Positions 26,092 through 44,904 of a DNA stretch of 46,615 bases are shown here, piece after piece. The notes below the pieces were generated by a model. It was not told the DNA's origin. It saw nothing but the letters and a program-made list of their open reading frames with translations, and ran no database searches. The translations under genes were made by a program, and so were the position numbers. Source of the DNA: a virus; IMG/VR virus record IMGVR_UViG_3300027573_000051, positions 1-46,615 of that record; one strand, written 5' to 3'. Numbering within the stretch: position 1 is the first letter of the stretch; the number at the start of each line of letters is the position of its first letter.

Positions 26092-26910
26092 ATGCCGCTA
26101 ACAGTACCACAACAGATAAGCATCGGCGCATTGTGCGCCTTATATACGTCTAATGAGTTAGAATCAGGGACGAGACACGGAGGGGTGATTGACCCCAAGC
26201 TACCTCATTTAATATACGCCGTAAATCAAGGGCTAAAATGGCTATACGAACTTGATACCACCGATTCAGATTTAGTTCCCATTGGGAACTATCTTATTTC
26301 TATATGTAGGCAGCAGTTCAGAGCGCAAGGAGTTTTGGCATTGAATAACGGGGGGACAGTCGCACCAATTACGCCAAACAATCCTCCGCCAAATGATATT
26401 GACTTCATAGTAAGTTCAACTTCATTAATCCCAACCGGAGATACAGAAATCTATTTGGATGGTACGGGTGGCCCAGATTTAAGAGGCTATGACATTGACT
26501 TTTTCAGAGGCAGCCAAGTTCAATACACCACACCACAACAAGGAGGTGCAGCATACTATTCATGGAATAATGTTACAGGCTTATTGAGATTACTCCCAAC
26601 AGTAGGTGGGCAAGCATTGGTAGATGAGCCAATGAGAATTAGTCCTAAGACCGGCGGTGGAGCAACAGTAGTACCAACACAAGAGTACCCAATAGTTATT
26701 ACAAGCGCCGACTTTGAAGCAGATGGTGTAACATACTTGAACTCACTGATTGTTGGCGACCAATTATTCTTGTTGGCTAATAACGTTCCTAATCCAGCTT
26801 TGTTTGCGCCAACGGATTTTGTGTATGTGTCTGGGGGTATTGAAATTATATTAAGTGCGTTCAATGCAAACGTTTTTGACTATACCATAGTAATAAATAA
26901 AATAAATTAA
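26092..26910 (+). CDS. Virion-region protein with helical N-part and beta C-part
   Basis: A 272-residue protein. The first 90 residues are helical (SIGALCALYTSNELESGTRH, YAVNQGLKWLYELD, YLISICRQQFRAQGVL). A Pro/Asn-rich linker (VAPITPNNPPPNDIDF) joins them to a beta-rich C-terminal part (GDTEIYLDGTGGPDLRGYDI to the end). This reads like a small anchor domain plus an exposed decoration or fibre domain. The gene opposite in reading direction is absent and spacing to both neighbours is under 5 bases, so it belongs to the structural run. The function is unknown. Confidence 0.45.
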   Translation: MPLTVPQQISIGALCALYTSNELESGTRHGGVIDPKLPHLIYAVNQGLKWLYELDTTDSDLVPIGNYLISICRQQFRAQGVLALNNGGTVAPITPNNPPPNDIDFIVSSTSLIPTGDTEIYLDGTGGPDLRGYDIDFFRGSQVQYTTPQQGGAAYYSWNNVTGLLRLLPTVGGQALVDEPMRISPKTGGGATVVPTQEYPIVITSADFEADGVTYLNSLIVGDQLFLLANNVPNPALFAPTDFVYVSGGIEIILSAFNANVFDYTIVINKIN

Positions 26911-27139: not shown

Positions 27140-29908
27140 ATGAAGAAAATATTTTCGATACTTTGTTTTTTAATTGCAACAATAACCTGCTTTGGACAAC
27201 CAATAGTACCAAGAACAAATAGTTCTTACACGGTACAGGATAGTAGATTTTCAGCAGCGTTGAACTTGTTTGTCCCACGTTACGCCGATACCACAGCAGC
27301 CAACGCCGGAACAGCAGAAGGTATTGATTCTCTTGGAGCAGTTATTTTTACCTATAGCACAATGACGCTCTGGGTACGCTCTGGTTCGCCTAAGACTTGG
27401 GTGGAAGTAGGGAGCGGTAGTTCTGGTAGTGGAACGGTAACAAGTGTATCATTTACAGGAGGGTTGATTTCAGTTGCTAACCCAACAACTACTCCTGCAT
27501 TTACCGTTGCTGGTACAAGTGGTGGTATCCCTTATTTTAATTCATCTTCAACTTGGCTTTCAAGCGGGGCTTTAACGGCTAATGCTTTGGTAATTGGTGG
27601 TGGTGCTGGTGCTGCCCCTTCAACAACAACTACTGGTACGGGCGTATTAACTGCATTAGGTGTGAATGTTGGTACAGCAGGAAGTTTTGTAGTGAATGGT
27701 GGGACATTAGGAACTCCATCAAGCGGTACGGCAACCAATATAACGGGGCTTCCAATAGTAGCAGGTACAACGGGTACTTTAACCATTGCAAGAGGCGGTA
27801 CTAATCTAACAGCACTTGGTACAGATGGTCAGTTATTGAGAGTAAATGTAGGAGCGACGGCACTTGAATATTTTACTCCAACGTATGTAGCAACTAATAT
27901 ATATACATCTGACGGGACGATAGCGGGTAATAGGCTTATTGATTTAGATGGAAATAATCTACAATTCGTAAGCGGGTCTAATGTGGATATATTGGTTTCT
28001 CCATCTACAGCGCAAGTTGACGTTACGGCTGACACAATAAGCCTTCATGGGGCAGTTACTATTGAGGGAACGATAGCGTCTAATCCTATATTATCCTTTC
28101 ACGGGGCTTCATCCGGTGTAGTAACTATCCAACCTGCCGCAGATGCCGGAACATACACCCTAACCCTCCCAACAACAGATGGAGATGCAGACCAATTCCT
28201 ACAAACCAATGGTAGTGGCGTTTTAACATGGGCAACAGCAAGCGGTGGTTCTTCCTTATTCCCAACAACAGGTACAGGGACAGCTACGGGGGATGTGACA
28301 GGTGAATTGGCGGGCAATTCACTACTTATAGAACAGGGGGATTTAGCCTTCTTGAGTATTTTACCAACAGTCGGAGCCGAGGAAGCTAGGTTAGCAGCTT
28401 GGAGCGCAGATGAAACTTTTTATTCAAGATTTCACGCTTTTTTATCGGGGGGAACAGATGCGACTTTTAATATAAGAGCAAATCTTGACGGGGGATATAG
28501 GTCAATTATTGAAGGTACTGCAAATGTTTCAACTAGCTCCATAACCCATACATCAGGGTCTCATATATTTAATATATATAACGGTGATGGCGACGATGCA
28601 ATCGGGTTGTTATCATTAGCCGAATCATACATAAGGGCGTTTAACCCAACCGATGATGATAATATTTCTTTTTTAAAAAGTACCGCAGATGCAACATCGT
28701 CTGGATTTGAATTAGAAGCAGATTTTAATGATGGGGTAACTGCTTCTAGCATAGTAGCGCTTGCCAATACTTCAACAGCAACCATAACCTATACAGCAGA
28801 CCAACATACTATTACAGGAGCAGTAAGAATAAGTGCATTAGGTGGTAGTGGTAGTGGATTTGTAGCAGTGGATAATGATGGTGATTTGAGTTTCAGTTCA
28901 GGTAGTGGGGCTAATACAGCATTATCAAACCTAGCCGCAGTAGCTATCAATACAAGTTTAATTTCAGATGCAGATAATACAGATGATTTAGGAAGTACAG
29001 CTAATGGATGGAAAGATGTTTATTCAAGGACAGTAAAGTTAGATGGTTCTACTTCGGGTACAGCAACGTTACAAGCTACTGCAACAGCAGGAACACCTAC
29101 AATAACATTTGGTACTGTAACGGGGACGGTAGCTATAACAGGTGATAAACTTTCAGCTTTTGCAGCCACTACTTCAGCAGAATTAGCGGGAGTGATAAGC
29201 AATGAGACAGGAAGCGGGTTATTGGTATTTGGGACTGCCCCCGCAATGTCATCAATTACTTTGGCTGCGGGTACTGCAACGGCGGGTACTGCACCATTGT
29301 ATCTTACATCAGGAACTAATTTAACTGTACCTGTAAGTGGTGCGGTAGAATTTGATGGGATAACAGCCTACACGACAACAACAAGCGGTAGAGGGGTTGC
29401 CCCATCCACCATGATAGCAAGGATAATATCTGGGGCTGAATTTACCATGCAGAACATTGCTACAGTTCAACCCGTATTCCCAACAACAGCAGATGTATGG
29501 ACGTTGCAAGGTTCAACTACGTATTACTTTGAAGGATTTTACTATTTCACTCACGGTACTACTTCTCACAACGTAGGAATGAGTTTTGAATTAGCGGGTG
29601 GCGCATCTGTTACTTCAATAATTTACAGCACTCTTTGTTGGACAACCGCACCACCAACACAAACTTCTGCTCAAGCCACTACAACTTTTGTAGGTGTTGC
29701 AAACTCTCCTGTTGTTGCAGCAGCAGCAGTAGCACAAGAATCAATAAGGTTTAGCGGGTACATTTCAATGAACGCTGGCGGTACTGTTACACCATCAATT
29801 ACGTTCAGCGCAGACCCAACAGGAACGATATTAGCAAAGGCTGGAACTTATATAACATTTACTCCGGTAGGCAGTTCAACTTTCACCACCGTAGGAAACG
29901 TAAACTAA
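27140..29908 (+). CDS. Fibre/adhesin-like repeat protein with signal peptide
   Basis: A 922-residue protein, rich in Gly, Thr, Ala and Ser, built like a phage tail fibre. It opens with a type I signal peptide (MKKIFSILCFLIATITCFG) followed by Gln, as in the Bacteroidetes Q-rule. An N-terminal segment contains MTLWVRSGSPKTWVEVGSGS. Module B (about 96-174: SVSFTGGLISVANPTTTPAF and [16 protein letters not shown]) and module A (about 324-366: [20 protein letters not shown]) recur in the 1333-residue protein. A C-terminal globular beta domain (about 770-922) could bind a ligand. It has no T9SS sorting domain or membrane anchor that I can see. The export signal is unexpected for a protein assembled in the cytoplasm. 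Confidence 0.6.
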   Translation: MKKIFSILCFLIATITCFGQPIVPRTNSSYTVQDSRFSAALNLFVPRYADTTAANAGTAEGIDSLGAVIFTYSTMTLWVRSGSPKTWVEVGSGSSGSGTVTSVSFTGGLISVANPTTTPAFTVAGTSGGIPYFNSSSTWLSSGALTANALVIGGGAGAAPSTTTTGTGVLTALGVNVGTAGSFVVNGGTLGTPSSGTATNITGLPIVAGTTGTLTIARGGTNLTALGTDGQLLRVNVGATALEYFTPTYVATNIYTSDGTIAGNRLIDLDGNNLQFVSGSNVDILVSPSTAQVDVTADTISLHGAVTIEGTIASNPILSFHGASSGVVTIQPAADAGTYTLTLPTTDGDADQFLQTNGSGVLTWATASGGSSLFPTTGTGTATGDVTGELAGNSLLIEQGDLAFLSILPTVGAEEARLAAWSADETFYSRFHAFLSGGTDATFNIRANLDGGYRSIIEGTANVSTSSITHTSGSHIFNIYNGDGDDAIGLLSLAESYIRAFNPTDDDNISFLKSTADATSSGFELEADFNDGVTASSIVALANTSTATITYTADQHTITGAVRISALGGSGSGFVAVDNDGDLSFSSGSGANTALSNLAAVAINTSLISDADNTDDLGSTANGWKDVYSRTVKLDGSTSGTATLQATATAGTPTITFGTVTGTVAITGDKLSAFAATTSAELAGVISNETGSGLLVFGTAPAMSSITLAAGTATAGTAPLYLTSGTNLTVPVSGAVEFDGITAYTTTTSGRGVAPSTMIARIISGAEFTMQNIATVQPVFPTTADVWTLQGSTTYYFEGFYYFTHGTTSHNVGMSFELAGGASVTSIIYSTLCWTTAPPTQTSAQATTTFVGVANSPVVAAAAVAQESIRFSGYISMNAGGTVTPSITFSADPTGTILAKAGTYITFTPVGSSTFTTVGNVN

Positions 29909-29913
29909 TAAAC

Positions 29914-30822
29914 ATGGATGCACTAGAAAAAATAAGAGCAGTAACGGGGAATGATTTAGATGCTATTGCTGAAACAACTATGGATATTTTGGTCGTGGTT
30001 GATAGGGATACACCTGTTGTAAGCGGTGAGTGTCCTATGCCGGTAAACCCATACCCGAAGCAATTTTTTATAATAACTACCAGAGTAGATATTACTGCAT
30101 TAACAATGAACGCCAACTCTGTTGGTAGAACTATACGTGGCAATGTAACATCATTGCCTGCTAACACTTCTGTTGGTTGGGTGTATGATGACGTTAGTAA
30201 TGCGTGGTTCCCATTATTTAATTCAGCACCAGTTTGGGGTGGTATATCAGGTTTATTAAGCAATCAATCTGATTTAGAGGATGCCTTAACCTCAAGGCAA
30301 GCCACTCTAGTTTCAGGGGCGAATATCAAAACAATAAACGGGGCATCAATATTGGGGGCGGGTGATTTAGTAGTATCTGCCGTAGGTACGCCTGTTTGGT
30401 CAAGAGTTAGCGGGAGTAACGTAACCACAACGGGGCAAGTATTGGTTGATATAACTGGGCTTTCTAATTCTTTAGAGGCAAACGCATTTTATGAATTTGA
30501 AGCTCACCTTTTAGTATCAACTTCAGCAGTTACAACCGGAACGGCCTATGGTATTAATTTTTCTTCTGCGGGGGCGACAGTGACCGCTAGTATTGTAGGT
30601 TCATCTACAAATACAGCTACAAAGACACTTCGGATTAATGCCTTTAATTCACAAACGGCAATATATTTAGCAACATCAGGTCAAGTTGGGGCAATCTTAA
30701 TTAAGGGGATTATTGAAACAGGCGGTAACCCCGGTAATTTAACAATTATGCACTTGAAATTGACTTCAGGAACTTCAACCGTGTTTATTAATAGTTATTT
30801 GAAAACAATAAGAATAGCGTAA
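29914..30822 (+). CDS. Fibre-like protein without signal peptide
   Basis: A 302-residue protein. Residues 1-125 form an unknown N-terminal domain (for example TTMDILVVVDRDTP and PKQFFIITTRVDITALTMNA). Residues 132-155 carry the common tail-fibre spacer TLVSGANIKTINGASILGAG, and 158-302 are a beta-rich C-terminal domain (YEFEAHLLVSTSAVTTG, TATKTLRINAFNSQTAIYL) that could be a receptor-binding or trimer-forming head. It lacks the export signal of its large neighbours, so it is the better candidate for an ordinary virion fibre. It starts five bases after the previous stop. Confidence 0.55.
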   Translation: MDALEKIRAVTGNDLDAIAETTMDILVVVDRDTPVVSGECPMPVNPYPKQFFIITTRVDITALTMNANSVGRTIRGNVTSLPANTSVGWVYDDVSNAWFPLFNSAPVWGGISGLLSNQSDLEDALTSRQATLVSGANIKTINGASILGAGDLVVSAVGTPVWSRVSGSNVTTTGQVLVDITGLSNSLEANAFYEFEAHLLVSTSAVTTGTAYGINFSSAGATVTASIVGSSTNTATKTLRINAFNSQTAIYLATSGQVGAILIKGIIETGGNPGNLTIMHLKLTSGTSTVFINSYLKTIRIA

Positions 30823-30823
30823 A

Positions 30824-30997
30824 ATGACTAAGAGACTATACATACTATTGATTGTTTTACTTAGTGCAGTTATTACTATTGGGCAAAAGGCCAATGACAT
30901 GAAAGTAACAGCTAAAACAACATTGATAAAAACCAAAATAGGTAATTGTGAGAATACTGTTAAGCCTACTGTTACTGATAGCGGTATCATGCAGTAA
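30824..30997 (+). CDS. Small protein with signal peptide (57 residues)
   Basis: A short gene from the ATG one base after the fibre stop to a TAA at 30995-30997. Its first 20 residues, MTKRLYILLIVLLSAVITIG, form a type I signal peptide followed by Gln. This stretch closely resembles the start of the 1333-residue gene ([19 protein letters not shown]), so one was probably copied from the other. The remaining 37 residues (KANDMKVTAKTTLIKTKIGN and a short end) match nothing I know. Its last 50 bases overlap the lipoprotein gene in another frame. It may be a truncated remnant or a real secreted peptide. Confidence 0.45.
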   Translation: MTKRLYILLIVLLSAVITIGQKANDMKVTAKTTLIKTKIGNCENTVKPTVTDSGIMQ

Positions 30998-31289
30998 GAC
31001 AAGGAGGTTTTGCAAGAGTGAGTATTGGTTAGACATATCAATATCGGTAGAGAATCAAAAGTATATTAGTCACATTGAATTGCAAATTGAGAAAAACGAT
31101 CAACCATTTAGTTCTTATTACATTTTTACGAAAGAGAAAGGAGATAATCATATTTACAAATTGAAACACGACATAACCAATATGATAAAGGACGTTAAAA
31201 TAGGAGATGAATTTAAAATACGCTATGAGGTGTTTGATTGGCGGGATGGGTCATCAATTTTTACACAACCTGAAGCATTTATAAAATGA
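30948..31289 (+). CDS. Small lipoprotein (113 residues)
   Basis: A GTG start gives [17 protein letters not shown], a convincing lipoprotein signal with Cys15 as the acyl-modified residue, which is why I choose GTG despite its overlap with the preceding small gene. The mature part (about 99 residues) looks like a beta sandwich ([56 protein letters not shown]). It would sit in the inner or outer membrane facing the periplasm. The stop overlaps the next gene by ATGA. With the short signal-peptide gene it recalls overlapping spanin pairs, but neither has the usual long coiled coil, so this is only a possibility. Confidence 0.55.
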
Positions 31290-34200
31290 AAAGATTATAT
31301 ATAATATTACTTGTTTTACTCTCTTGCTTTGGTGCTATTGCCCAAACGCCGCCTATTCAAAATTTAGGTGCGCCGGGTAACATGGTTTTAGCAAGAGGTC
31401 TTTTCGGTATTGATACTGGATTGGTTATTCGTACAAACTATGCAGATACGGGAAGCCTAAACACAAACGCCTTCCTTAAATACCAAGCAGGAGCAATAGC
31501 AAGAGTAGGTGATGATCTTTGGGTTAGAAATGCAGCAGCGACACAATGGCTGCCTATTGGTGGTAGTGGCGATGTAAATGTTGAAAATAGTAATTCAATT
31601 AATTGGGAAGGTGATGGTTCTTTTGAAAATCCATTGATTGCCCAAGTAACTACATCTGGACAATCAGGGAATAGTATATCGTTATTGCCCGATGGTATTT
31701 TCTCTCCAATAACGGTTCAGAATGGATTGATTAGTGGTGGTAATATTACATGGGTTAGTGGTTATACTTACGATGTTACCGAAACAAATTATGCAATTCA
31801 AGGGGTGGTATATCTTGCCCCAGAAGATCAAATAACACTAGCCAACTCTGACCCAACATTTGATAGGATAGATAGAGTAGTAGTTGATACGGCCAATAAT
31901 GTCGTTATAATTGAAGGAACGCCAGCCGATGATCCACAAGAGCCATCCTACGACCCTGAAACACAATTACCACTAGCATTAATTTTAGTAACGGCAAATT
32001 CAACAGAACCAACAGTTGACCAAGAATATATTTATCTTAACAATGCAGAGTGGACAACATTTGCCAACCACGTTTCAATTAACCCCGCATCAACTACCAA
32101 CCCATTCTCACCAACATTGGACGTAGAAGGTACATTAACTCCTAATGCAGCCGCAATAACTTTTACCGACCCAACTCCACCTACAACGATGAGTACTTAT
32201 AAGGTGCTTACGTTTAAGATATTTTCCAAAGGGGCCTATGCGGCTACATCAAGATTAACATTAAGATTCTTTAGTGGATTAACAGCCGTTGGTAATTTAG
32301 TGACGGTTAGCGATGGTACGTTTGGTTTCAGTTCAGCAAATACAAGTGGTTATCAAACTATAACTATACCGCTATACGTATTTGGTGCAATGTCAACTGT
32401 TACTTCATTTACAATAACTACAAGTACATTAACGGGAAGTGGGAATACAGTAGGATATTACATTGATAACATTCAATTACAAGGTGGTGAGGGAACAATA
32501 ATACCAGAGGGAAGCGGTAATGCTCACTTGCAAAACGGTAATTTCTATGGTACATTAGGAGTATTAGGTTCTCTTGATAACAACGCATTGGCATTTATTA
32601 CCAATGCAACACAAAGAATGAGATTGCTAACAAATGGTAAGCTATTAATAGGTACGGCTACTGATAATGGCGTTGGTGGTGTATTGCAAGTATCGGGTAC
32701 AGTTTCCGGCACAGCCGACAATGCCGTTCCATTGGGTACATCAACAAGAAGATTCTTAGAACTTTGGTCAGACATTCATCAAGGAACTTCATACATGAGG
32801 TTCAATATTGGTGGAGTTACAGCCGGACAAATACAGCCAACCACAAGGAACTTAGTATATGGCTCTAATCCAACAGTAGATATACCATCAGCATTAGCAG
32901 CTTTCAATAGCACTACCAAAGGTATATTGATACCAAAGATGACCACTACCGATAAGAACGCTATCAGTTCTCCCGCAACGGGATTACTTGTATTTGATAG
33001 TACCCTTAATGCTTTCTATGTTTATCATACAGGGGCATGGAATCCAATAGGGGCAACAATAACCGCAAGTAATGGGCTTACTATGAGTACTGCTACTAAT
33101 GCAATATGGGGTGGTACTTTATCGCAAAATACTTCCATTAGTAATGCTAATCTTTACAATATAACAATAACAGGTCAATTAACAAGTGCTACAATATTCA
33201 GTGTAACTAATAGTGCTGGGTCAGGATTTCTTAGTACAGCAGTAGCTGGCATATCAACAAATGGGAGGGCTATATCTGGAACTTCTACAAACAGTACTGG
33301 CGTTTATGGTACAAGTACTGGCGGTGTTGGGGTACAGGGAAATTCAGCAAGCAGCGTAGGCGTACAGGGAACTTCTTCAACTAATACCGCACTTTATGGT
33401 ACAAACTCTACGGCATCATTCCCCGTATTATGGACAATACAAACCACGTCAGGCACGAATGATATAGTGCCTAGTTATTGGGTGCAGAGGGCTTCAAGCG
33501 GAACTGCGGCAAATGGCATAGGGCTATCTGTTGACCTTTATATTGAAACGACAAATGGGAATGTTTTTTCAGCAAACTCCTTAGTCTCAAAATGGACTGA
33601 TGTTACCCATGCAACAAGAACATCTCAATTCATACTACGGGGAACTAATAGCGCAGCATCAAATGACATACTAACGCTAAATGGTAATGGGAGCGTACAG
33701 TTAAATGACTACGGTATAAACACATTCGCCGGTACTCCCGTATATGCTTTAGGAGTAGAAGCAGATGGGGATATTGTTGAGTTTGCTGTTGGTGCTGGAA
33801 CGGGTGATGTTATAAAAGTAGGCACTCCCGTAAATAATCAATTAGGCGTTTGGACAGGTAATGGTACAATAGAAGGAGATGCTAACTTAACTTTTGCTTC
33901 ATCAACTTTGAACATTGGTGTTGCAGGTGCATCAACAGGTATATTAACTGTAAGTGGTGTTACTTCTGGAACGGTTACTATTCAGCCAGCAAGTGCCGCA
34001 GGTACATATACATTGACACTTCCAACAACAGATGGTAATGCAGGTGAGGTATTAAGTACAGATGGTGCAGGTGTATTATCATGGATAGCGGCAGGTGCAG
34101 TAGGTACGGTTACTAATACAACATGGACAGGTGGAATAGTGTCAATAGCTAATCCAACAACAGTCCCAGCGTTTACCGTTGCGGGTACAAGTGGTGGCGG

Positions 34201-35287
34201 TGTTTATTTTTCAGGTGCAGCTACATGGGCTTCAACAGGGGTATTAGCCGCAAACGCATTAATGATTGGTGGCGGTGCAGGTGCAGCATATTCAACAACT
34301 ACAACAGGTACCGGAATATTAACTTGGTTAGGAACTCCATCAAGTGCTAATCTTATAACAGCAGTAACGGATGAAACAGGTAGCGGATTGTTAGTGTTTG
34401 CCACTTCTCCCGTTCTTACTACTCCCAATTTGGGGACTCCGTCAGCAGTAACATTAACTAATGCAACAGGGCTTCCATTAACGACAGGTGTTACAGGTAA
34501 TCTTCCAGTAACTAATCTTAATTCAGGAACGCTTGCAAGTGCAACTACTTATTGGCGTGGTGATGGTACATGGGCAACTCCCGCAGGTAGTGGTACAGTA
34601 ACGAGCATAACATTAACTCAACCAGCAGCCGGTATAACAATTACAAATAGCGGTGTTGCAATTACAGGTTCAGGTACAAGAACATTTGCTCTTGCCAATG
34701 ATTTACTAGCATTGGAGAATTTAGCCACAACAGGGATAGCACGTAGAACAGGTACTTCAACTTGGACAGCGGGTGGGTTGGTTTCATTGACTACTGAAGT
34801 TACTGGAACATTGCCGGTTTTAAATGGGGGTACAGGTCAAACAACTTATACCAATGGGCAATTATTAATAGGTAATACTACAGGTAATACATTAACTAAA
34901 ACTACATTAACAGCAGGGACAGGTATAAGCATCACCAATGGGGCAGGTAGTATAACCATTGCAACCGTATTTAACCCAACCGTTCAAACATTAACAGATG
35001 GAGCAACAGTAACGTGGAACGTAAGTAATGGCGGTAATGCAGTTCTTACATTGATTGGAACAGGAAGAACGCTATCAATTACAAATCCGGTTGCAGGATA
35101 CACATATACTATTAGGGTGGTGCAGGGAGGTGGAGGGTCAAGGACGATAACAACATACCCTACCGGTACTGTTTGGTCAGGCGGTACTGCTCCAACGCTT
35201 TCAACAACGGCAGGGCAGTATGATTTAATTGTGTTATACTACGATGGAGTTAGATTTATAGGAACTTATAGCTTAAACTATGTGTAA
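31286..35287 (+). CDS. Giant fibre/adhesin-like protein with signal peptide
   Basis: A 1333-residue fibre-type protein. The start [19 protein letters not shown] followed by Gln fits a type I signal; Cys14 in LLSC also makes a lipoprotein reading possible. Order: N-terminal segment with [17 protein letters not shown] (about 75-91); a domain near 120-250; a jelly-roll-like beta domain (about 263-402, ending [11 protein letters not shown]); a segment near 545 with [20 protein letters not shown], common in phage fibres; modules A (893-930) and B (940-1015) shared with the 922-residue protein; [17 protein letters not shown] near 1180; and a C-terminal knob (about 1235-1333, with [19 protein letters not shown] and [20 protein letters not shown]). 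Role: cell-surface binding by inference. The HNH gene starts 8 bases before its end. Confidence 0.6.
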
Positions 35288-36029
35288 GAAGATAGATTTA
35301 ATATGCTCTAATTGTGGCGATGTTAAAACCATGTATAAGTCAGAAAAACTTAGGAAAAGTTCTTTGTGTAAAAAGTGCCATATAGATAAAGAGAAGAAAA
35401 TGGGGGTTGATAGGCGTGAATCATTGAGATTATCCACTCATTTAATTTGCCCTAGTTGTAAGAAGGAAAAGAGTACTAGCGAATTTTACTTAAACGGGCA
35501 GAATAGGAAGTGTAAGGACTGTATGCCATATAATAAAAAAGTAGAGCAAACTTGTGTCAAGTGCGGATTGACGAGGGTGGTTTCACTAGCAGCTTCAGTA
35601 AAAGGTAGCGGTCTTTGTAAGTGGTGCGCTCAAAAAATAGCCGCTAATAAGCCTGAAACTAAACAAAGAAAATCATTGCAAGCCAGAGAGCAGGTATTGA
35701 GACAAGGAGGTGTGCCTAACGCAAAGAAGTTCACCAAAGACCAAGCAAAAGAAAACCACTACAATTGGAAAGGCGGCATTACGCCAGAGGTAATGCGGAT
35801 TAGAAATTCAGAAGAAACGGCAATATGGAGAAAGGCAGTATTTGAAAGAGATGACTATACTTGTCAGGGTTGCGGCCAAAGAGGCGGCAGGTTGCATTGC
35901 CATCATGTAAAAGAATTTTCAAAATACCCCGAACTAAGGTTTGAGGTAAGTAATGGACAAACTCTTTGTGTTTCGTGTCATACAAAAACACATAATTACG
36001 GCAGAAAGAAACAACTATCGGTAGCATGA
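35280..36029 (+). CDS. HNH homing endonuclease with three zinc ribbons
   Basis: A 249-residue protein. Three CxxC...CxxC ribbons lie in a row: Cys9/12/30/33, Cys57/60/78/81 and Cys92/95/113/116. They are followed by a linker with [10 protein letters not shown] (157-166) and an HNH nuclease domain (about 183-240) with [36 protein letters not shown]. The ribbons probably read the DNA target and the HNH part cuts one or both strands. It overlaps the end of the 1333-residue fibre gene by 8 bases and the next gene by ATGA, so it sits inside the operon without leaving a gap. It differs in domain plan from the HNH protein at 3826-4383 and is a separate insertion. Confidence 0.9.
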
Positions 36030-37606
36030 AGTTAGTTATAGCGATATTATTTTTACTTGTTAGTTTAAGCGCAAATTCCCAATTCGGGAACAAGAACTTT
36101 TTTTTCAAGCCAGCATCGGTTACGCCTCCTGCTCCTGGAAACCAACCATTTTCATTTACAGCCATACCATTTAGTGAGCAAGATAGTATTAATGTAGGCA
36201 GAGGCGCAGAGCAATGGCATAACGGTAGCGAAGGCATCCCAAATCCAACGGAGACAGATAACAGGCCACCGCTAGATTTTTATTATAGGTTTATGTGGCA
36301 TCAAGTTGAAGGTGCAACACAAGGGGATTATACGTTTGCATATTTCGATAGTTTAGCAATGGGGGCTATAAATGCAAATCAGCAATTTTCATTTGGCATA
36401 ATGACTGTCTTTACGGGTGGTGGTACTACTTATGATGGTGGGCGTAGTGCGTACCCTGAATATCTTCATGATCTCATGCAAGCCGAAACAGCTAACAGTA
36501 GAGATTGGTTGACAGGTGATGGTGATTGGATACCAAACTTTAATTCGCCAAACTATCTTTCAAGATTAAGGGCATTGCACGTAGCGTTAAACGCACATAT
36601 ACTTACAACTTCACTTACTGCATGGCAAGGGCCAAAGATCGGGCAAAGCATACCACTAAGTAGTATTATTTATTGTATTGATGTACGTGGTTATGGGAAC
36701 TACGGTGAGTGGCATAGTGGTGGCATTTGCGATTGGTCAACATGGCCAACAGGCAGGCAACCAACAGCCGCTTCATTGATGGAAATAATAGATACGCATA
36801 CCGAAGTATTTACAAGTTGGCCTCTTAGCATGATGGTGGCGGCTTATGATGGCGGTGCAACATTCATCCCTTTATTCGTACCACTTCCACAAGTTGCCTA
36901 TTACGCATTAACAGCTACCAATACATACGATACAATAGGGTTTCGCAGAGATCAATGGGGGGCAACAGATTCTTACCTCAATACATTAATGGCGGGCAAT
37001 ACAGGAACGTATAATGGTTCTCAACAATTCAGATATTATATTTTAAATAGGTGGAAGAATGCGCCCGTAACAGGTGAACCGCCAAGTTGGGATGCAGATG
37101 GATGGGTGGATTTATTAAATCAAATAAATACTTACCACGCCACTTCATTTGGTAATGGAAACTATGGGCCATACCCAAGTCCAGCAGGCAGGGACAGAAT
37201 AAGAACAGCATTTAAAACGGCAGGGTACAGATTAATAATTACCAATGGTACAGCACCACAAGTTATCACAAGAGGGGTTTCATTTAATATTGAAGCAAAT
37301 TGGCAAAATACAGGCATAGCACCATCCTACAATAACTGGACAGTTACCTATGAATTACAAGATGGCGGTGGTACGCCTGTATGGGTTGGTACAAGTAGTA
37401 AGGTTTTGAGGAAATTTTTACCCGCAGGGTCGGCAACAAATACCACAGATTTACTTACTGTTCCTATTGATGTGATTGCAGGTACATATAGGTTAGTGGT
37501 AAGAGTGAAAGACCCGTTAGATTACAGGCCAAATTTGAAATTAATGGTTAGCGGTAGAAATTCAGACGGGACATATACAATATTTCCAAGCGTTACGGTC
37601 AATTAA
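36026..37606 (+). CDS. Secreted TIM-barrel glycoside-hydrolase-like protein, copy 1
   Basis: A 526-residue protein. Residues 1-19 are a signal peptide ([18 protein letters not shown], then Gln). A TIM-barrel-like domain (about 45-400) starts NVGRGAEQWHNGSEGIPNP. It includes FSFGIMTVFTGG, DVRGYGNYGEWHSGG with Glu228, and PVTGEPPSWD with Glu351; these two Glu are candidates for acid/base and nucleophile. A C-terminal beta sandwich (about 415-526) contains NIEANWQNTGIAPSYNNW, GTYRLVVRVKDPLDYRPN. The plan resembles DUF4832-type proteins with a GH-like barrel. It probably acts on a polysaccharide, perhaps as a capsule depolymerase; the substrate is unknown. A paralogue follows directly. Confidence 0.65.
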   Translation: MKLVIAILFLLVSLSANSQFGNKNFFFKPASVTPPAPGNQPFSFTAIPFSEQDSINVGRGAEQWHNGSEGIPNPTETDNRPPLDFYYRFMWHQVEGATQGDYTFAYFDSLAMGAINANQQFSFGIMTVFTGGGTTYDGGRSAYPEYLHDLMQAETANSRDWLTGDGDWIPNFNSPNYLSRLRALHVALNAHILTTSLTAWQGPKIGQSIPLSSIIYCIDVRGYGNYGEWHSGGICDWSTWPTGRQPTAASLMEIIDTHTEVFTSWPLSMMVAAYDGGATFIPLFVPLPQVAYYALTATNTYDTIGFRRDQWGATDSYLNTLMAGNTGTYNGSQQFRYYILNRWKNAPVTGEPPSWDADGWVDLLNQINTYHATSFGNGNYGPYPSPAGRDRIRTAFKTAGYRLIITNGTAPQVITRGVSFNIEANWQNTGIAPSYNNWTVTYELQDGGGTPVWVGTSSKVLRKFLPAGSATNTTDLLTVPIDVIAGTYRLVVRVKDPLDYRPNLKLMVSGRNSDGTYTIFPSVTVN

Positions 37607-37611
37607 TATCT

Positions 37612-39300
37612 ATGAAAAATCTTTTAATATCCATATTATTCTTAATAAGCTACACAGTTTCGGCACAAGTTATCTCTGTCACCATCACAAAGGAATTAGA
37701 CACGCTTACTTTAACAAAAGTTCCAAAAAATAAAGTAATTAAAGTTGGGAAAATATCGTATGTAGATTCTACAATCAAGTATGATACCACAATCTCTACT
37801 GTTAAGAAGTATGTCCCAACAACTACTCCACCAACAACAGGAACAACGGTAAATTTTACATTTACTCAAATCCCAATAACTGACCCCGATATAATTTCAC
37901 CAGGAAGGGGCGCAGAACAATGGCATAACAGCACAGAGAGAATACCCAACCCAACAGAAGCGCAGCCTATTGGTATAGAAAATTCTTTAGATGTGTATTA
38001 CAGGATTCAATGGTCAGAAATGGAATCAGGGTTAACGGCAGGGAATTACACATGGGGAAGGTTGGATAATATATTCATAGATGCTATTAATAAAGGTCAA
38101 AGAGTTTCCTTTGGTATTATGACTGTTCATGCGGGGAATGGCACAGTAACTTATGATGGCGCACCAAGTTCATACCCTCAATATCTGCATAACTTAATGA
38201 AGTTGGAAGCTACCAATAGTAGAGATTGGGTTGGCGGTGGCGGGTGGATACCAAACTATAATTCTCCAAATTATATTTCAAGATTAAGAGCATTGCACCA
38301 AGCTACCGAAGATCATTTATTAGCTACCACATATACTCCAACAACCGGCCCAAATGCAGGTAAGACAGTAAGATTCTCCGATGTAGTTTATGTTATTGAT
38401 ATAAGAGGTTATGGTAATTACGGCGAATGGCATAGCGGTGGGTATTGTGATTGGAATACATATCCAGCAGGCAGGCAACCAACAGTAGCATCTTTAAAAG
38501 CAATTATTGACGCACACACACAAATATTTGATAAGTGGCCTCTTGCTATAATGATAGCTGCATTTGATGGTGGTGGTACATACATTCCATTATTTGTTCC
38601 TTATCCAGAAGTAGCTCACTATGCAGCAACAGCACGTAACGCATGGGGGCAAGTTGGATGGCGCAAAGATCAATACGGAGCAACAGATGGCTACCTTGCC
38701 ACACTACTTGAAAATAATAATGTAACATGGAATGGTTCACCACAGTTGAAAACCATTTTAATGAACACATGGAAAACTGCACCAATAACCGGAGAGCCGC
38801 CTTCGTGGACTGTCAATGGCCCAGACTTAATGCGCCAAGTTACTACCTACCATACCACATCATTTGGTAATGGTAATTACGGCCCTTACCCAGATGCAAC
38901 ATTAAGAAATCAAATAAGGGATGCTTTCAAAAAAGCAGGGTATAGATTAGTATTAACAAGTGGTAAAGCTGTAACAAGTACAGGTAATCTATCCATCAAT
39001 TTAGCATGGCAGAATATAGGAATTGCCCCAACTTATGAGAATTGGAATGTCGTATATGAATTAGTGAATAGCTCAAATGTAGTTGCATGGTCAGGAACGA
39101 GTACGTTTAAGCCTAAGTTTTTTCAACCAGGAACTACGCCAACAACAGTAGTAGAGAATTTCCCTGTTAGTGTACCAACAGGAACATATACATTGAGAGT
39201 AGCCATTAAAGACCCGACTAATTATAGGGCTAATGGTGTATTGGCAATAACAGGGAGAACAACTAACGGGTATTATAATTTAGGAACAATAACGTATTAA
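37612..39300 (+). CDS. Secreted TIM-barrel glycoside-hydrolase-like protein, copy 2
   Basis: A 562-residue paralogue of the preceding protein. Signal peptide MKNLLISILFLISYTVSA plus Gln. An extra N-terminal segment (about 20-85, with LDTLTLTKVPKNKVIKVGKI and a Thr/Pro stretch) is absent from copy 1. The barrel repeats the same marks: GRGAEQWHNSTERIPNP, SFGIMTVHAGNG, DIRGYGNYGEWHSGG (Glu272) and PITGEPPSW (Glu395). The beta sandwich has NLAWQNIGIAPTYENW and GTYTLRVAIKDPTNYRAN. Most of the barrel is clearly conserved between copies, but the two differ enough that the duplication is not recent. It may attack a related but different glycan. It is the last of the large exported proteins, before the lysis cluster. 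Confidence 0.65.
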   Translation: MKNLLISILFLISYTVSAQVISVTITKELDTLTLTKVPKNKVIKVGKISYVDSTIKYDTTISTVKKYVPTTTPPTTGTTVNFTFTQIPITDPDIISPGRGAEQWHNSTERIPNPTEAQPIGIENSLDVYYRIQWSEMESGLTAGNYTWGRLDNIFIDAINKGQRVSFGIMTVHAGNGTVTYDGAPSSYPQYLHNLMKLEATNSRDWVGGGGWIPNYNSPNYISRLRALHQATEDHLLATTYTPTTGPNAGKTVRFSDVVYVIDIRGYGNYGEWHSGGYCDWNTYPAGRQPTVASLKAIIDAHTQIFDKWPLAIMIAAFDGGGTYIPLFVPYPEVAHYAATARNAWGQVGWRKDQYGATDGYLATLLENNNVTWNGSPQLKTILMNTWKTAPITGEPPSWTVNGPDLMRQVTTYHTTSFGNGNYGPYPDATLRNQIRDAFKKAGYRLVLTSGKAVTSTGNLSINLAWQNIGIAPTYENWNVVYELVNSSNVVAWSGTSTFKPKFFQPGTTPTTVVENFPVSVPTGTYTLRVAIKDPTNYRANGVLAITGRTTNGYYNLGTITY

Positions 39301-39327
39301 TAATAAAAAGCAAAAAATGTGAGAACA

Positions 39328-39513
39328 ATGGACAATCATAATGCGGATCAAGGCAATATATCGTTGTTAATTTCTATCATAACAGGTATGCTTGCATGGA
39401 TAGGATCATATAGTTTGGGGGAAGTTTTTAAAGGGGTGTCAATGGCAGTCTCTATTATAGCCGGTATAATGGCTATTCGGTATTATTATTATGCAACCAA
39501 AAAACAGAAATAA
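39328..39513 (+). CDS. Two-helix membrane protein, holin candidate
   Basis: A 61-residue product from the ATG at 39328; an in-frame GTG at 39319 would add three residues. After a short polar start come two hydrophobic segments, about 11-30 (SLLISIITGMLAWIGSYSL) and 35-52 (KGVSMAVSIIAGIMAIRYY), then a basic tail (YATKKQK). Small size, two transmembrane helices, charged C-terminus and a place a few hundred bases before an endolysin fit a class II holin that lets the endolysin cross the inner membrane. The next small gene has the same layout, so either could be the holin. Confidence 0.55.
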   Translation: MDNHNADQGNISLLISIITGMLAWIGSYSLGEVFKGVSMAVSIIAGIMAIRYYYYATKKQK

Positions 39514-39515
39514 AT

Positions 39516-39797
39516 ATGGCTGACGTAAAATTCGGGCGCAAGCAATTAGCAAATCCAACACCTAAAGGGATAGCTTTTAAAATCAATATCGTAATGGCAA
39601 TAGCTACGGCAATAGCAGGTTGGATTAATACCGTTGATTTTATTCCAGCAAGACCATCAAGTATCACAGCAGCTATATTAAGTTTGGTTGTATTGATCTG
39701 CATGGCGGTTAAACCGTTCTATGGTGTTGAAACAACAGAAACAGAAGTACCTATTGATGAAGTAGGTGAAATGGAAGAAACGGAAACAAAAAAGTAA
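39516..39797 (+). CDS. Two-helix membrane protein, second holin or antiholin candidate
   Basis: A 93-residue protein. Hydrophobic segments lie at about 20-37 (AFKINIVMAIATAIAGWI) and 49-66 (SITAAILSLVVLICMAVK), and the tail is strongly acidic (VPIDEVGEMEETETKK). It begins three bases after the preceding two-helix gene. A pair of small membrane proteins in front of an endolysin often means holin and antiholin, but the sequence cannot say which is which. The acidic tail contrasts with the basic tail of its neighbour, which could allow the two to interact. Confidence 0.5.
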   Translation: MADVKFGRKQLANPTPKGIAFKINIVMAIATAIAGWINTVDFIPARPSSITAAILSLVVLICMAVKPFYGVETTETEVPIDEVGEMEETETKK

Positions 39798-40284: not shown

Positions 40285-40839
40285 ATGACACAAACAAGGA
40301 TATTATATTGGATAAAAGAGAACCTTGCGCCGGTAATAAATAAAGCATTAAAAGAGAATGAAGGTGTCATATACACAGAGGATTGGTTGGCAGCAATGGC
40401 ATATAGAGAAACAGGGTTTTTAATAGCTAGGTATGCAGATAAAAAAATGTCTCCCGATTCTATCCACTCAATTATTAAAGGCGATTATGGCCGGAGAGAT
40501 GGAGAATTAGAAAAGCAGTATCATGGCTTTGGTTATTGGCAAATAGATATTGGGAGCTATCCAGAGTTTGTTAAATCAGGGCAATGGAAAGACCCGTATT
40601 TAACCTGCATGAAAGCTATTCATGTATTGGAAGAAAAAAGAAAGTATTTAGCTAAGAGAGTTGACATTGATAAGATAGGATTAGACACCTACCACAGAGC
40701 AATAACAGCAGCGTATAATTGTGGGCAAGGTAATGTTATGAGAGCAATAGAGAAAGGAGTTGATGTTGACAGATATACTCATCAAGGGGATTACTCAAAA
40801 GTTGTTTGGTCATTAAGAGATGCGTATAAATTACTATGA
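40285..40839 (+). CDS. Endolysin, lysozyme-fold glycan hydrolase
   Basis: A 184-residue protein. The lysozyme/lytic-transglycosylase signature is clear: DWLAAMAYRETGF with the catalytic-type Glu42, then YHGFGYWQIDIGSYPEF (about 80-96), and AITAAYNCGQGNVMRAI (about 138-155), the AYN motif that shapes the active cleft. It would cut the glycan strands of peptidoglycan at the end of infection. It has no signal peptide, so it needs a holin; two candidates lie just upstream. It overlaps the next small gene at the stop codon (ATGATG). The fold is shared with the virion protein at 16374-17294, but the two are not close relatives. Confidence 0.8.
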   Translation: MTQTRILYWIKENLAPVINKALKENEGVIYTEDWLAAMAYRETGFLIARYADKKMSPDSIHSIIKGDYGRRDGELEKQYHGFGYWQIDIGSYPEFVKSGQWKDPYLTCMKAIHVLEEKRKYLAKRVDIDKIGLDTYHRAITAAYNCGQGNVMRAIEKGVDVDRYTHQGDYSKVVWSLRDAYKLL

Positions 40840-41009
40840 TGCTAACCTATTATAAAGGGTATGCCATTCAGGAAATAAATGGCTTGTGGAGATTGGTATT
40901 ATCACCTTATGAGTTTTATTCCTCACTTGAGGCAATTAGAAAACAAATAGATATACTATATGACAAAAGCAGACTTGGCAAGGAAGTACAGAAAAGAAGC
41001 GGGGAGTAA
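40836..41009 (+). CDS. Small 57-residue phage protein
   Basis: ATG at 40836, overlapping the endolysin stop, to TAA at 41007-41009. The product opens MMLTYYKGYAIQEINGLWRL and continues with PYEFYSSLEAIRKQIDILYD. This looks like a compact strand-strand-helix mini-domain in which a 'YKGY.I...NG.W' hairpin is followed by a helix. Its last 50 bases overlap the metallophosphoesterase gene in another frame. The gap would otherwise be empty, and the start overlap suggests real translation. I cannot name the family. Confidence 0.5.
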   Translation: MMLTYYKGYAIQEINGLWRLVLSPYEFYSSLEAIRKQIDILYDKSRLGKEVQKRSGE

Positions 41010-41955
41010 GACCCCACATGCTGAATTAGCCAGAAAAATGCACAAAGAACAGCCTATAATGTTCCCTACTATTGAGACGGCAAGAGATTCTCTTAGGTAC
41101 ATTGAAGGTAAGTCAGGCGGTCGAAAAGCAAAATTCGTTAAAGAAACAGAGTTTTTTATGGAAGAAAAAAGAAGTACAAACCCGTATGCTTTGCCTGAAC
41201 CAGATAGTGACGATTTAGAGCCTTACAGATTGCCAAAATCGTTTAATGATTTCATTTTAGCTGGTGATTTCCACATACCAAACCACAGGATGCCACCAAT
41301 AAATGCAATGATTAACTACGCTAAAGAAAACAAAATAACAAAGCTATTCATAAATGGGGATTTACTAGACAATACGCCATTTTCTAAGTGGGTAAATGAA
41401 CCAGTTCGGCCATCCGATGTTCCACGTTGGTTTGACATGGCAAAAGATTTCCTTAAAACATTAAAGCAAACCTTTACTGAAATATATTGGTTAGAGGGGA
41501 ATCACGACTTTTGGTTCAAAAGATTTTTAATGACTAAGGCAGAACTTCTTTTTGGCGATAAATACTTCCATTTAGAGCAAAGGTTAGCCTTAAATGAATT
41601 AGGGGTTAAATACATTGACCAAAAATATCTTGTCAAGGCGGGGCATTTAAACATCGTACACGGGCATATATTATTCAGGGGTGGCGGCAGCTATGCAAAT
41701 GCAGCTAGGATGCTTTACCAAAAGACAAAGGCCAATACAATAGCATCCCATGTCCATGTTGAGAGTTCGCATAGTGAACCAGATTTAAATGATAAGCTGA
41801 TCACCACTTTTACAACCGGCTGCATGTGTTCCCTTAGACCAGATTACCAACCATACGGCGGGAAGGCTTGTCATGGCTTTGCCCACATTCAAATAAAGAA
41901 TAACGGTGATTTTAATTTAAAGAACTTCCGTATTTACAAAGGCGAAATTATGTAG
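40960..41955 (+). CDS. Calcineurin-like metallophosphoesterase with N-terminal helical domain
   Basis: A 331-residue protein. The metal ligands of the family are all there: GDFHIP (Asp103, His105), NGDLLDN (Asp134), GNHD (Asn181, His182), VHGH (His234, His236) and ASHVH (His264, His266). The enzyme should hydrolyse phosphoester bonds; the target could be nucleic acid ends, nucleotides or phosphoproteins. The first 65 residues form a separate helical unit (LARKYRKEAGSKTPHAELAR and PTIETARDSLRYIEGKSGG) that might bind nucleic acid in helix-turn-helix fashion. It lies after the endolysin in a run of short overlapping genes. Compared with host homologues the extra N-terminal domain is the notable part. 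Confidence 0.85.
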   Translation: MTKADLARKYRKEAGSKTPHAELARKMHKEQPIMFPTIETARDSLRYIEGKSGGRKAKFVKETEFFMEEKRSTNPYALPEPDSDDLEPYRLPKSFNDFILAGDFHIPNHRMPPINAMINYAKENKITKLFINGDLLDNTPFSKWVNEPVRPSDVPRWFDMAKDFLKTLKQTFTEIYWLEGNHDFWFKRFLMTKAELLFGDKYFHLEQRLALNELGVKYIDQKYLVKAGHLNIVHGHILFRGGGSYANAARMLYQKTKANTIASHVHVESSHSEPDLNDKLITTFTTGCMCSLRPDYQPYGGKACHGFAHIQIKNNGDFNLKNFRIYKGEIM

Positions 41956-42175: not shown

Positions 42176-42380
42176 ATACGATATTGAGGATGTTTTGTAT
42201 ATCAAAATAGACCCCGAACAATTACCTCATAGAGTGGTGGGAATTGTGATCTTGCCAGGAGCCATTAAATACCGGCTAAGTTATTTAGGGGAAGAATATG
42301 AACTATACAACTTTGAACTATCAAAGGATATTAATCTAATTTCTGACGATGTAAACCCGCCGAATGAAAGTGAAGAATGA
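42159..42380 (+). CDS. Small beta-rich protein, unknown
   Basis: A 73-residue product from a GTG start inside the end of the preceding gene. The sequence runs KIKTEYDIEDVLYIKID, HRVVGIVILPGAIKYRLSYL and EEYELYNFELSK, four or five strands as in a small SH3-like or KOW-like barrel, with an acidic tail. Such barrels are common in tiny phage proteins, but the family is not certain. Start choice rests on the fit of the strand pattern and the overlap; no ATG lies near it. Confidence 0.5.
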   Translation: MKIKTEYDIEDVLYIKIDPEQLPHRVVGIVILPGAIKYRLSYLGEEYELYNFELSKDINLISDDVNPPNESEE

Positions 42381-42616
42381 GAAAACTAATAATTATTTTA
42401 TGCCTGTATTTATTATCCTGTTCTCCTGAAAAGGCTTTGCAAGTTCATGGTGAATATTGGGTATTGGTAGAAAAAAAAGAAGCTACCAGATATATAGATA
42501 GCTTCACTTGGTTAATATGGGAAAATCAAAACGGGATACGGTATTGGGAAGGTGTTTCAGATATTAGAGCTTCGGCTTATCCAATAGGAACAATGATATA
42601 TAATAGAACTAAATAA
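42377..42616 (+). CDS. Small lipoprotein (79 residues)
   Basis: Starts MRKLIIILCLYLLSCSPEK, with a lipobox LLSC and Cys15 as the lipid-modified residue. The mature part is Trp/Tyr-rich and probably beta (GEYWVLVEKKEATRYIDSF, NGIRYWEGVSDIRASAYPIG). It overlaps the previous gene by ATGA and is the last rightward gene; a leftward gene ends ten bases further on. A role in lysis or in blocking superinfection at the envelope would fit such a protein, but is inference. Confidence 0.6.
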   Translation: MRKLIIILCLYLLSCSPEKALQVHGEYWVLVEKKEATRYIDSFTWLIWENQNGIRYWEGVSDIRASAYPIGTMIYNRTK

Positions 42617-43373: not shown

Positions 43374-43667
43374 CTATTTGTCGGTTTTAGTTTTCCATAC
43401 ATAGTAGCAAGCATTCTTTTTTAATTGCACATTGTAATACCGGAGCAGCGTATCGCTGTTATTAGATACGAATATGTGCTTGTAGCCTCTTGGCGTTACT
43501 CTAATATCAGCTAAAGTACATTGAGTATAGTATTTAGCTAGGGTGCTTGGCTTCATATTTACGGCCTCCTGGTTATACCGATTAACGGAACAAGAGGAAA
43601 GGAAGGCAAGTAGAATTACTATTCCAACGGCCAATACTGTGTAGTTAGTGTTTTGTTTCTGTTTCAT
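43374..43667 (-). CDS. Small lipoprotein (97 residues)
   Basis: A charged start (MKQKQNTNYT) is followed by VLAVGIVILLAFLSSCSVN; the lipobox LSSC places the modified Cys at 26. The mature part includes AVNMKPSTLAKYYTQCTLAD, YKHIFVSNNSDTLLRYYNV and ends NACYYVWKTKTDK, with two more Cys that could form a disulfide in the periplasm. It is probably an envelope protein; the family is unknown. An 86-base AT-rich gap separates it from the next gene downstream. Confidence 0.55.
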   Translation of the reverse strand: MKQKQNTNYTVLAVGIVILLAFLSSCSVNRYNQEAVNMKPSTLAKYYTQCTLADIRVTPRGYKHIFVSNNSDTLLRYYNVQLKKNACYYVWKTKTDK

Positions 43668-43902: not shown

Positions 43903-44052
43903 CTAAGCCCTCATTTTACTTGTCCTATGTCTTGGTTCTTGCCCCTTCCAGCACGGGGATGATTGATAGTTTTTAGAACTGGCACAGCTTATGATCATTG
44001 AGGCCAGTAATGACCATGCAATGATGAATAGAATTAATCGTGTTGTTTTCAT
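43903..44052 (-). CDS. Small lipoprotein (49 residues)
   Basis: From the ATG at 44052 to the TAG at 43903-43905. Starts MKTTRLILFIIAWSLLASMI and then ISCASSKN; the lipobox IISC puts the modified Cys at 23. Only about 27 mature residues remain, with one more Cys (SSPCWKGQEPRHRTSK). Such tiny lipoproteins with a basic tail are known in Bacteroidetes genomes but their function is not. It is preceded by an A-rich leader and lies two bases from both neighbours. Confidence 0.5.
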   Translation of the reverse strand: MKTTRLILFIIAWSLLASMIISCASSKNYQSSPCWKGQEPRHRTSKMRA

Positions 44053-44054
44053 TT

Positions 44055-44168
44055 TTAATTTAATTTATAGTTGAAAGATTTGATACTAAGATGAAAATAC
44101 TCATATCGTAATATGTATGCCTCTACCATTGGGTGGGCCTGAGTTGTTATTTTCTGCATATTGATCAT
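44055..44168 (-). CDS. Possible 37-residue peptide
   Basis: From the ATG at 44168, overlapping the stop of the preceding lipoprotein gene (ATGA), to a TAA at 44055-44057, two bases before the next start. The product is MINMQKITTQAHPMVEAYIL plus RYEYFHLSIKSFNYKLN. It has no known motif. Spacing to both neighbours is what supports it; it could also be the decayed end of the upstream gene. Confidence 0.3.
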   Translation of the reverse strand: MINMQKITTQAHPMVEAYILRYEYFHLSIKSFNYKLN

Positions 44169-44317
44169 AGGTAAAAGCCCCCCGCTTGCTTTGTGTGTCT
44201 CACCCCTCTGCAATCTTTTTTCGTCACTGAGCAAGAACTAAAGGATATTACTAAGGCAATAAGCACAGCCAATAAAAAGTAATTTGATAGCTTGTTGTTA
44301 TACGGTTGTTTTTTCAT
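44165..44317 (-). CDS. Small lipoprotein (50 residues)
   Basis: From the ATG at 44317 to the TGA at 44165-44167. Starts MKKQPYNNKLSNYFLLAVLI and continues ALVISFSSCSVTKKD; the lipobox FSSC places the modified Cys at 29. The mature part is only about 22 residues, basic, with a second Cys (DCRGVRHTKQAGGFYL). It resembles the 49-residue lipoprotein downstream in plan (Cys, Lys-rich, Cys, basic end), so the two may be diverged copies. The upstream hairpin at 44349-44372 separates it from the next gene. Confidence 0.5.
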   Translation of the reverse strand: MKKQPYNNKLSNYFLLAVLIALVISFSSCSVTKKDCRGVRHTKQAGGFYL

Positions 44318-44643: not shown

Positions 44644-44904
44644 TTAATCAATTTTAATATAGTTTTTATAAATGTTCCCGCTTTTGCTGGTTCTCATATA
44701 GTACAGTTTACCATTTTTAGATATATAGACAGGATAGGTTTTACCGTTTTGGTCAGTGAATGTCTTGCCCGTGTCTTTGCCTTTGTCGTCCATTTTAATG
44801 GCTTTTACTGCTATATAATTACCCTGGCTGTCCTTTGTTATTGTTTGAGCATGGAGGCCAAAGGATAAGCCTAAAATAGCTGCTAAAATGATTATTCGTT
44901 TCAT
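44644..44904 (-). CDS. Small secreted protein (86 residues)
   Basis: A type I signal peptide MKRIIILAAILGLSFGLHA is followed by Gln, as in the Q-rule. The mature part is beta-rich and shows a repeated pattern, TITKDSQGNYIAVKAI, TFTDQNGKTYPVYI, SKNGKLYYMRTSKSGNIY, each with an Asn-Gly or Gly-Asn turn, so three or four hairpins. It would be periplasmic or surface exposed. It overlaps the 75-residue gene at its start (ATGA). The role is unknown; it is one of several exported small proteins in this leftward block. Confidence 0.6.
   Translation of the reverse strand: MKRIIILAAILGLSFGLHAQTITKDSQGNYIAVKAIKMDDKGKDTGKTFTDQNGKTYPVYISKNGKLYYMRTSKSGNIYKNYIKID

Follow-up and report, generated by a model that had tools for sequence, protein, structure and literature searches.

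Predicted Sec-dependent export of tail fibres in a podovirus of a Bacteroidetes-type host

We propose, with a probability of about 0.57, that two large fibre proteins encoded directly after the tail genes of a podovirus (fibres 1 and 2) are virion tail fibres that would be routed through Sec, stay in the periplasm for a time and attach to the tail once the holin has opened the inner membrane, and that a neighbouring pair of DUF4832 proteins would be exported hydrolase-like enzymes. The genes lie in the window, by which we mean the whole stretch of 46,615 bases that was analysed (IMG/VR virus record IMGVR_UViG_3300027573_000051); its features are collected in Table 1. The initial annotation of this DNA had taken the signalled proteins for exported adhesins instead of tail fibres, and our analysis, which strengthens the underlying observation, supports that interpretation in part and shifts it to one of exported tail fibres.

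Table 1. Coordinates of the window features discussed in the text.
Feature	Coordinates	Strand	Remarks
Endonuclease-like gene	3826-4383		inside structural block; seen by eye only
Conserved neighbour, 172 aa	25572..26090	+	precedes the signalled fibre in every related contig
272-aa protein	26092..26910	+	between neighbour and fibre; relatives about 173-205 aa, same position
Fibre 1, 922 aa	27140..29908	+	signal codons 1-19 (27140-27196), Gln codon 20
Fibre-like protein, 302 aa, no signal	29914..30822	+	between two signalled fibres; weak PHROG 16348
SPI-Q protein, 57 aa	30824..30997	+	rule-based predictor
Predicted lipoprotein, 113 aa, GTG start	30948..31289	+	overlaps preceding 57-aa ORF
Fibre 2, 1333 aa	31286..35287	+	signal codons 1-19 (31286-31342), Gln 20
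HNH endonuclease gene, signal-less	35280..36029	+	inserted in fibre block; Pfam/PHROG
DUF4832 protein, 526 aa	36026..37606	+	signal codons 1-18 (36026-36079), Gln 19
DUF4832 paralogue, 562 aa	37612..39300	+	signal codons 1-18 (37612-37665), Gln 19
Two small membrane proteins, holin candidates	39319..39797	+	sequence inspection only
Lytic-transglycosylase-like lysozyme, signal-less	40285..40839	+	similar protein, by eye, in L058
Metallophosphoesterase-like protein	40960-41955		near lysis genes; NCBIfam matches weak
Small predicted lipoprotein	42377-42616	+	
Small predicted lipoprotein	43374-43667	-	
Small predicted lipoprotein	43903-44052	-	
Small predicted lipoprotein	44165-44317	-	
SPI-Q protein, 86 aa	44644..44904	-	by eye like a small SPI-Q protein of phi38:1

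The four large ORFs (fibres 1 and 2 and the DUF4832 pair) have the coordinates and starts given in the initial annotation, and its central claim, that each begins with a Sec signal of the Bacteroidetes Q-rule type, holds: a basic n-region, a hydrophobic core and small residues precede a Gln. Fibre 1 starts with MKKIFSILCFLIATITCFG and the DUF4832 paralogue with MKNLLISILFLISYTVSA, each followed by Gln at +1; so do the 57-aa protein (MTKRLYILLIVLLSAVITIG) and the minus-strand protein that starts at 44904 (MKRIIILAAILGLSFGLHA), the two small proteins to which the same type of signal had been ascribed and which our home-made, rule-based predictor, the source of all signal calls, also classes as SPI-Q. 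Gln occupies +1 in 6/6 SPI-Q proteins of the window (four large, two small), all with the positive n-region, hydrophobic core and small residues at -3 and -1 that characterise Q-rule substrates of signal peptidase I (SPI). With the same predictor we found lipoprotein-type signals, which the initial annotation did not list, in five ORFs (30948, 42377, 43374c, 43903c and 44165c).

None of the 19 head, tail and packaging genes that precede the fibre block (846 to 27138) was assigned a signal by the rule-based predictor, as against four of the six large fibre-block genes (Fisher p = 0.0012). The predictor makes false SPI-Q calls at a rate of 0.46% on shuffled N-termini and 0.17% on random sequence of the phage's composition. 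Among 108 structural ORFs on the upstream side in other phages, it made no SPI-Q call and found a single signal of any kind. The start codons of fibre 2 and the first DUF4832 gene overlap the preceding stop codon (ATGA), while those of fibre 1 and the DUF4832 paralogue lie 1 base and 5 bases, respectively, after it. There is no ATG, GTG or TTG between the signal of fibre 1 and codon 41, so a start that just skips this signal is unlikely.

Behind its signal, fibre 1 consists of an N-terminal module (YADTTAAN...LWVR...W, to about codon 92), a repetitive fibre and a distal tip; Pfam and PHROG searches with the protein returned no family match, and its C-terminus matched no phage. Fibre 2 has an equivalent module followed by fibre repeats, matches a tail fiber family (PHROG 31660, E 2.6e-17) and has a C-terminus similar to tail fibre or minor tail proteins of other phages. 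A Foldseek search with the modelled module placed collagen XV/XVIII trimerisation domains at the top, without significance (E 1.2), a hint at a role in trimerisation. Such a general role fits better than that of a podovirus-specific docking domain, since the module also occurs in L003, a phage with a tape-measure gene. The signal-coding DNA of the 57-aa ORF resembles positions 31286-31350 (alignment score 23; shuffle maximum 16), and on this resemblance the ORF is probably a duplicated fibre 5' end. An endonuclease-like gene was also seen by eye beside the fibre of a related contig (L047:11083-11838).

The terminase and portal of the window match packaging families in PHROG. Because the terminase shares 29% identity with its counterpart in the elemo Flavobacterium phages and 43-48% with those of eight related uncultured records, we assign the window, on sequence grounds, to a podovirus lineage for which we found no close member among cultured phages. 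The virus is a podovirus of a Bacteroidetes-type host, with the elemo and phi38:1 phages as distant relatives. Neither the N-terminal module nor the 172-aa neighbour nor DUF4832 has a match in 50,697 phage records, which rules out direct homologues in the closest cultured phages.

Scans with the fibre N-termini identified four more viral contigs (L003, L030, L041 and L042), and these matches begin no more than 3 residues from the N-terminus and include the signal. To avoid selecting contigs on the signal, we also scanned with the 172-aa neighbour alone, which added seven podoviral contigs (L046, L047, L048, L051, L052, L053 and L055, of which L046 and L047 are close relatives of each other); in 7/7, a fibre whose signal ends in a small residue followed by Gln lies downstream of the neighbour. 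For L048, L053, L055, L041 and L042 we placed the cleavage site by eye: a Lys within the hydrophobic stretch or behind it led the predictor to another class or to none. The fibre position directly after the tail genes has the same order in 10 related contigs, and fibres of the relatives match tail-fiber families (PHROG 18345 and 9942). Scans of viral contigs with a single DUF4832 protein and with the capsid-position protein at 23563 found nothing, and a six-sequence module alignment was too diverged for scanning.

When 13 fibre N-termini were aligned, the only invariant columns, four in number, were the +1 Gln and the D-T..N motif of the module; the small residues at -1 and -3 are conserved along with the Gln, and the helix sequence varies. 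The signal codons of L041 and L053 differ with dN 0.07 and dS 0.95, a ratio that points to purifying selection on the signal region. L046 and L047 are 100% identical in neighbour and signal, 97% in the module and 65% over the next 450 residues, which corresponds to the conserved N-terminus and variable distal part of receptor-binding fibres. In L053, a 52.9-kb record, the fibre position holds a single fibre-like gene, whose product is a signalled protein of 2324 aa; a second ORF that stood out by composition (1351 aa) is located within the tail genes, in the position of the window's structural protein 4361-7780. Judged by these comparisons, the signals are not a one-off capture of a host gene. 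The argument of the initial annotation that signals on neighbouring large genes speak against chance is strengthened by the nulls, the coupled starts, dN/dS and conservation, and the same four observations rule out wrongly chosen start codons. Together, the sequences support genuine Sec/signal-peptidase-I Q-rule signals with predicted cleavage in vivo.

The two DUF4832 proteins are 53-55% identical to each other, and score 49.6 and 46.4 bits against PF16116, above the Pfam gathering score of 29.2. The YGNYGEWH motif is invariant in four DUF4832 sequences, and the protein has no sequence match in the PDB. Foldseek hits to a DUF4832 model of low confidence (pLDDT 53, TM about 0.3) were GH35 beta-galactosidases, beta-amylase and PslG (E 7e-6), and we tentatively predict that the pair are exported glycoside-hydrolase-like enzymes. 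Bacterial relatives in Capsulimonadaceae and Spirochaetes genomes (L038 and L039) also have hydrophobic, signal-like N-termini, so the signal may have been inherited together with the gene; both diverged copies in the window have kept it. A search with the DUF4832 alignment found L058, a phage record whose terminase does not match the window. There, an 891-aa gene with a signal, an 89-aa SPI-Q gene and a DUF4832 gene, also signalled and with a GTG start, stand in a row (L058:6981-11509). The DUF4832 gene is followed, a few genes further on, by a lysozyme gene that is similar in L058 and in the window, and the L058 set of 891-aa, SPI-Q, DUF4832 and lysozyme genes is probably an exchanged cassette.

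The small proteins near the right end of the window form a group of their own. Four small predicted lipoproteins plus the secreted protein at 44904c form, for a phage of 46 kb, a set strongly directed towards the envelope, and one of the four lipoproteins may be an outer spanin. The counterpart of the secreted protein in Cellulophaga phage phi38:1 (L056:7091-7384, minus strand) may possibly define with it a conserved family of secreted phage proteins. The small membrane proteins listed as holin candidates have no match in Pfam. A metallophosphoesterase-like gene also lies near the structural genes of phi14:2.

Cultured Cellulophaga phages, which belong to families other than that of the window (siphoviruses phi10:1 and phi19:1, podovirus phi18:3), connect signals of this kind with virions. 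The record of phi10:1 marks gp91, gp92, gp93 (pectate lyase) and gp94 (tail fiber) with "annotation based on experimental MS/MS proteomics analysis"; each of these has an SPI-Q signal, as does gp95. In phi19:1, gp101-103 have SPI-Q signals and gp104 a signal with a non-Gln site, and all are annotated as MS/MS-detected structural proteins, as are gp85-87 of phi18:3, again with SPI-Q signals. By these annotation statements in the phage records, 11 signalled products, whose genes are placed comparably to the signalled fibres of the window, were detected by MS/MS, 10 of them with Gln at +1; comparable operons with signals occur in phi19:3, phi46:3 and Ingeline. Given these structural proteins and L053, the premise of the initial annotation that tail fibres lack export signals is not general. 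Export is not needed in general either, since fibres of cultured phages from other lineages (phi38:1, elemo, Panino, B124-14, 11b and RAP44) are signal-less. The pectate-lyase domain of phi10:1 gp93 recurs at 49% identity in phi17:2 and 44% in the crassvirus phi14:2, in proteins with signal-less N-termini that are annotated as structural or tail proteins (from direct MS/MS for phi14:2). It would thus seem that one enzyme can get into particles whether or not it is made with an export signal.

Runs of signalled genes are also found in an unrelated lineage of soil type (L004, L005 and L016, 53-57% GC), with a match to major capsid proteins in L004. Scanning with a protein from the structural block of L005 identified 22 contigs, and in ORFs of at least 200 aa, signals are present in 38/79 downstream of the structural gene (25 with Gln at +1) versus 1/108 upstream, or 30/68 versus 1/99 when the seed records L059 and L060 are left out. 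In viral contigs L059-L080 (53-58% GC), the structural block is followed by as many as five or six signalled genes in succession. By sequence, then, the export-signal pattern recurs beyond the lineage of the window.

The single-fibre argument from L053 cannot be transferred directly to the window, which has an unsignalled fibre-like protein at 29914. If that protein were the virion fibre, the signalled fibres and enzymes could be exported effectors outside the virion, acting on the host surface or on debris while another virion protein adsorbs, and serving to block superinfection, keep progeny off debris or digest capsule for release. This would agree with genuine Q-rule signals, with the signal-like N-termini of bacterial DUF4832 relatives and with a barrel that, in a weak model, resembles glycan hydrolases; moreover, as far as the available part of the report goes, phages of Porphyromonas gingivalis (Nixviridae) have five functionally uncharacterised Q-rule genes, for which a capacity to alter the outer membrane was proposed (PMC10367356). 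Exported proteins could also co-purify with particles, via vesicles or by sticking. Nonetheless, we consider such effectors less likely for the fibres, since the records of three cultured phages list signalled proteins among the structural proteins detected by MS/MS, L053 has no other fibre in the fibre position, and arrival at the outer surface before lysis would be unexplained: type-IX sorting domains are absent from the Pfam matches of the four large proteins (DUF4832 only) and of the relatives. The proposal of the initial annotation that exported adhesins and hydrolases act on the envelope may hold for the DUF4832 pair, whose bacterial relatives are signal-like, while fibres 1 and 2 are better read as virion fibres.

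Presence in virions would also be compatible with an uncleaved hydrophobic N-terminus that only resembles a signal and serves the particle as a membrane-active or docking peptide, and in the model of the N-terminal region it is the N-terminal helix that is predicted best. We regard this as improbable, because what is conserved are the features of Bacteroidetes SPI substrates (small residues at -1 and -3, Gln at +1) and not the helix sequence, and a host would not be expected to ignore such a signal. Even less probable, to the point of being hardly tenable, is that the signals no longer have a function and were left over when surface proteins of host origin came to act in the cytoplasm: DUF4832 relatives are bacterial and Bacteroidetes chromosomes do encode secreted proteins with phage-fibre-like repeats, but the signal is under purifying selection, its +1 Gln is invariant across widely diverged phages, both diverged DUF4832 copies retain it and it recurs in unrelated lineages. 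The suggestion of the initial annotation that host genes brought the signals is, for the fibres, less well supported than a virion role, for which the MS/MS annotation in phi10:1, phi19:1 and phi18:3 and the gene content of L053 speak.

Export of virion fibres could proceed as follows. Translation from the ATG yields a chain that begins with the signal and its +1 Gln, features seen in the sequence, with cleavage predicted from them. Sec would export the unfolded chain, signal peptidase I would cleave it, and host glutaminyl cyclase would cap the Gln as pyroglutamate. The fibre would then fold and trimerise in the periplasm, perhaps via the small module right after the signal, and would be retained there, as no type-IX secretion domain was recognised with Pfam. 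When the holin opens the inner membrane, virions would meet the fibres inside a still-closed envelope, and fibres would dock on the tail, possibly via the conserved pair of 172-aa and 272-aa proteins, the former of which is a possible tail-side docking protein. The lysozyme has no signal, so a holin should be needed; this fits lysis of the holin-dependent type, where the contents of cytoplasm and periplasm would mix before the envelope opens, and dilution therefore need not prevent docking. The DUF4832 enzymes might attack surface glycans during lysis or ahead of it, or might also join the particle. We know of no such late assembly step, with fibres docking after the inner membrane has opened, in tailed phages. 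More broadly, we suggest tentatively, at somewhat less than even odds, that tailed phages of at least two unrelated lineages have receptor-binding fibres that are exported by Sec, undergo processing and folding in the periplasm, and join the virion only once the inner membrane has opened.

Assembly of tailed phages is taught as wholly cytoplasmic. If our proposal is correct, it would include a step that crosses compartments, receptor-binding proteins could acquire periplasmic modifications, and a pool of free fibres would exist in the envelope before lysis. In practice, a heterologous host that expresses such fibres together with their signal would export them, and annotation would overlook them if it counted a signal peptide against a structural role. 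In the open-access literature searched, we found no paper that describes virion tail fibres with signal peptides or links Q-rule signals to virions, and the paper on North Sea flavobacterial phages does not mention signal peptides. The cultured Cellulophaga phages make the export of fibres directly testable.

Cleavage by signal peptidase I and pyroglutamate capping under the Q-rule are established for Bacteroidetes host proteins (PMC5837995), and capping raises the stability of extracytoplasmic proteins according to the accessible part of a second report (PMC10653852). The window shares with this pathway, to the extent covered by those sources, a signal followed by Gln at the SPI site; the pathway was described on envelope and secreted proteins of the host, whereas the signals of the window are on phage fibres in a structural block. 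The P. gingivalis phages likewise have predicted Q-rule genes, for which the available part of their report makes no link to tail fibres or virions (PMC10367356). Closest in arrangement are Cellulophaga phages phi10:1, phi19:1, phi18:3, phi19:3, phi46:3 and Ingeline, with 3-5 neighbouring large SPI-Q genes, although they differ from the window in phage family and in catalytic domain (pectate lyase rather than DUF4832). The fibres of phi38:1, elemo, Flavobacterium 11b and Bacteroides B124-14 are also from Bacteroidetes phages but have N-termini without signals. Lastly, filamentous phages make their virion proteins pIII and pVIII with Sec signals; these phages assemble in the membrane and tailed phages in the cytoplasm, such that the step at which exported proteins meet the particle must differ between the two.
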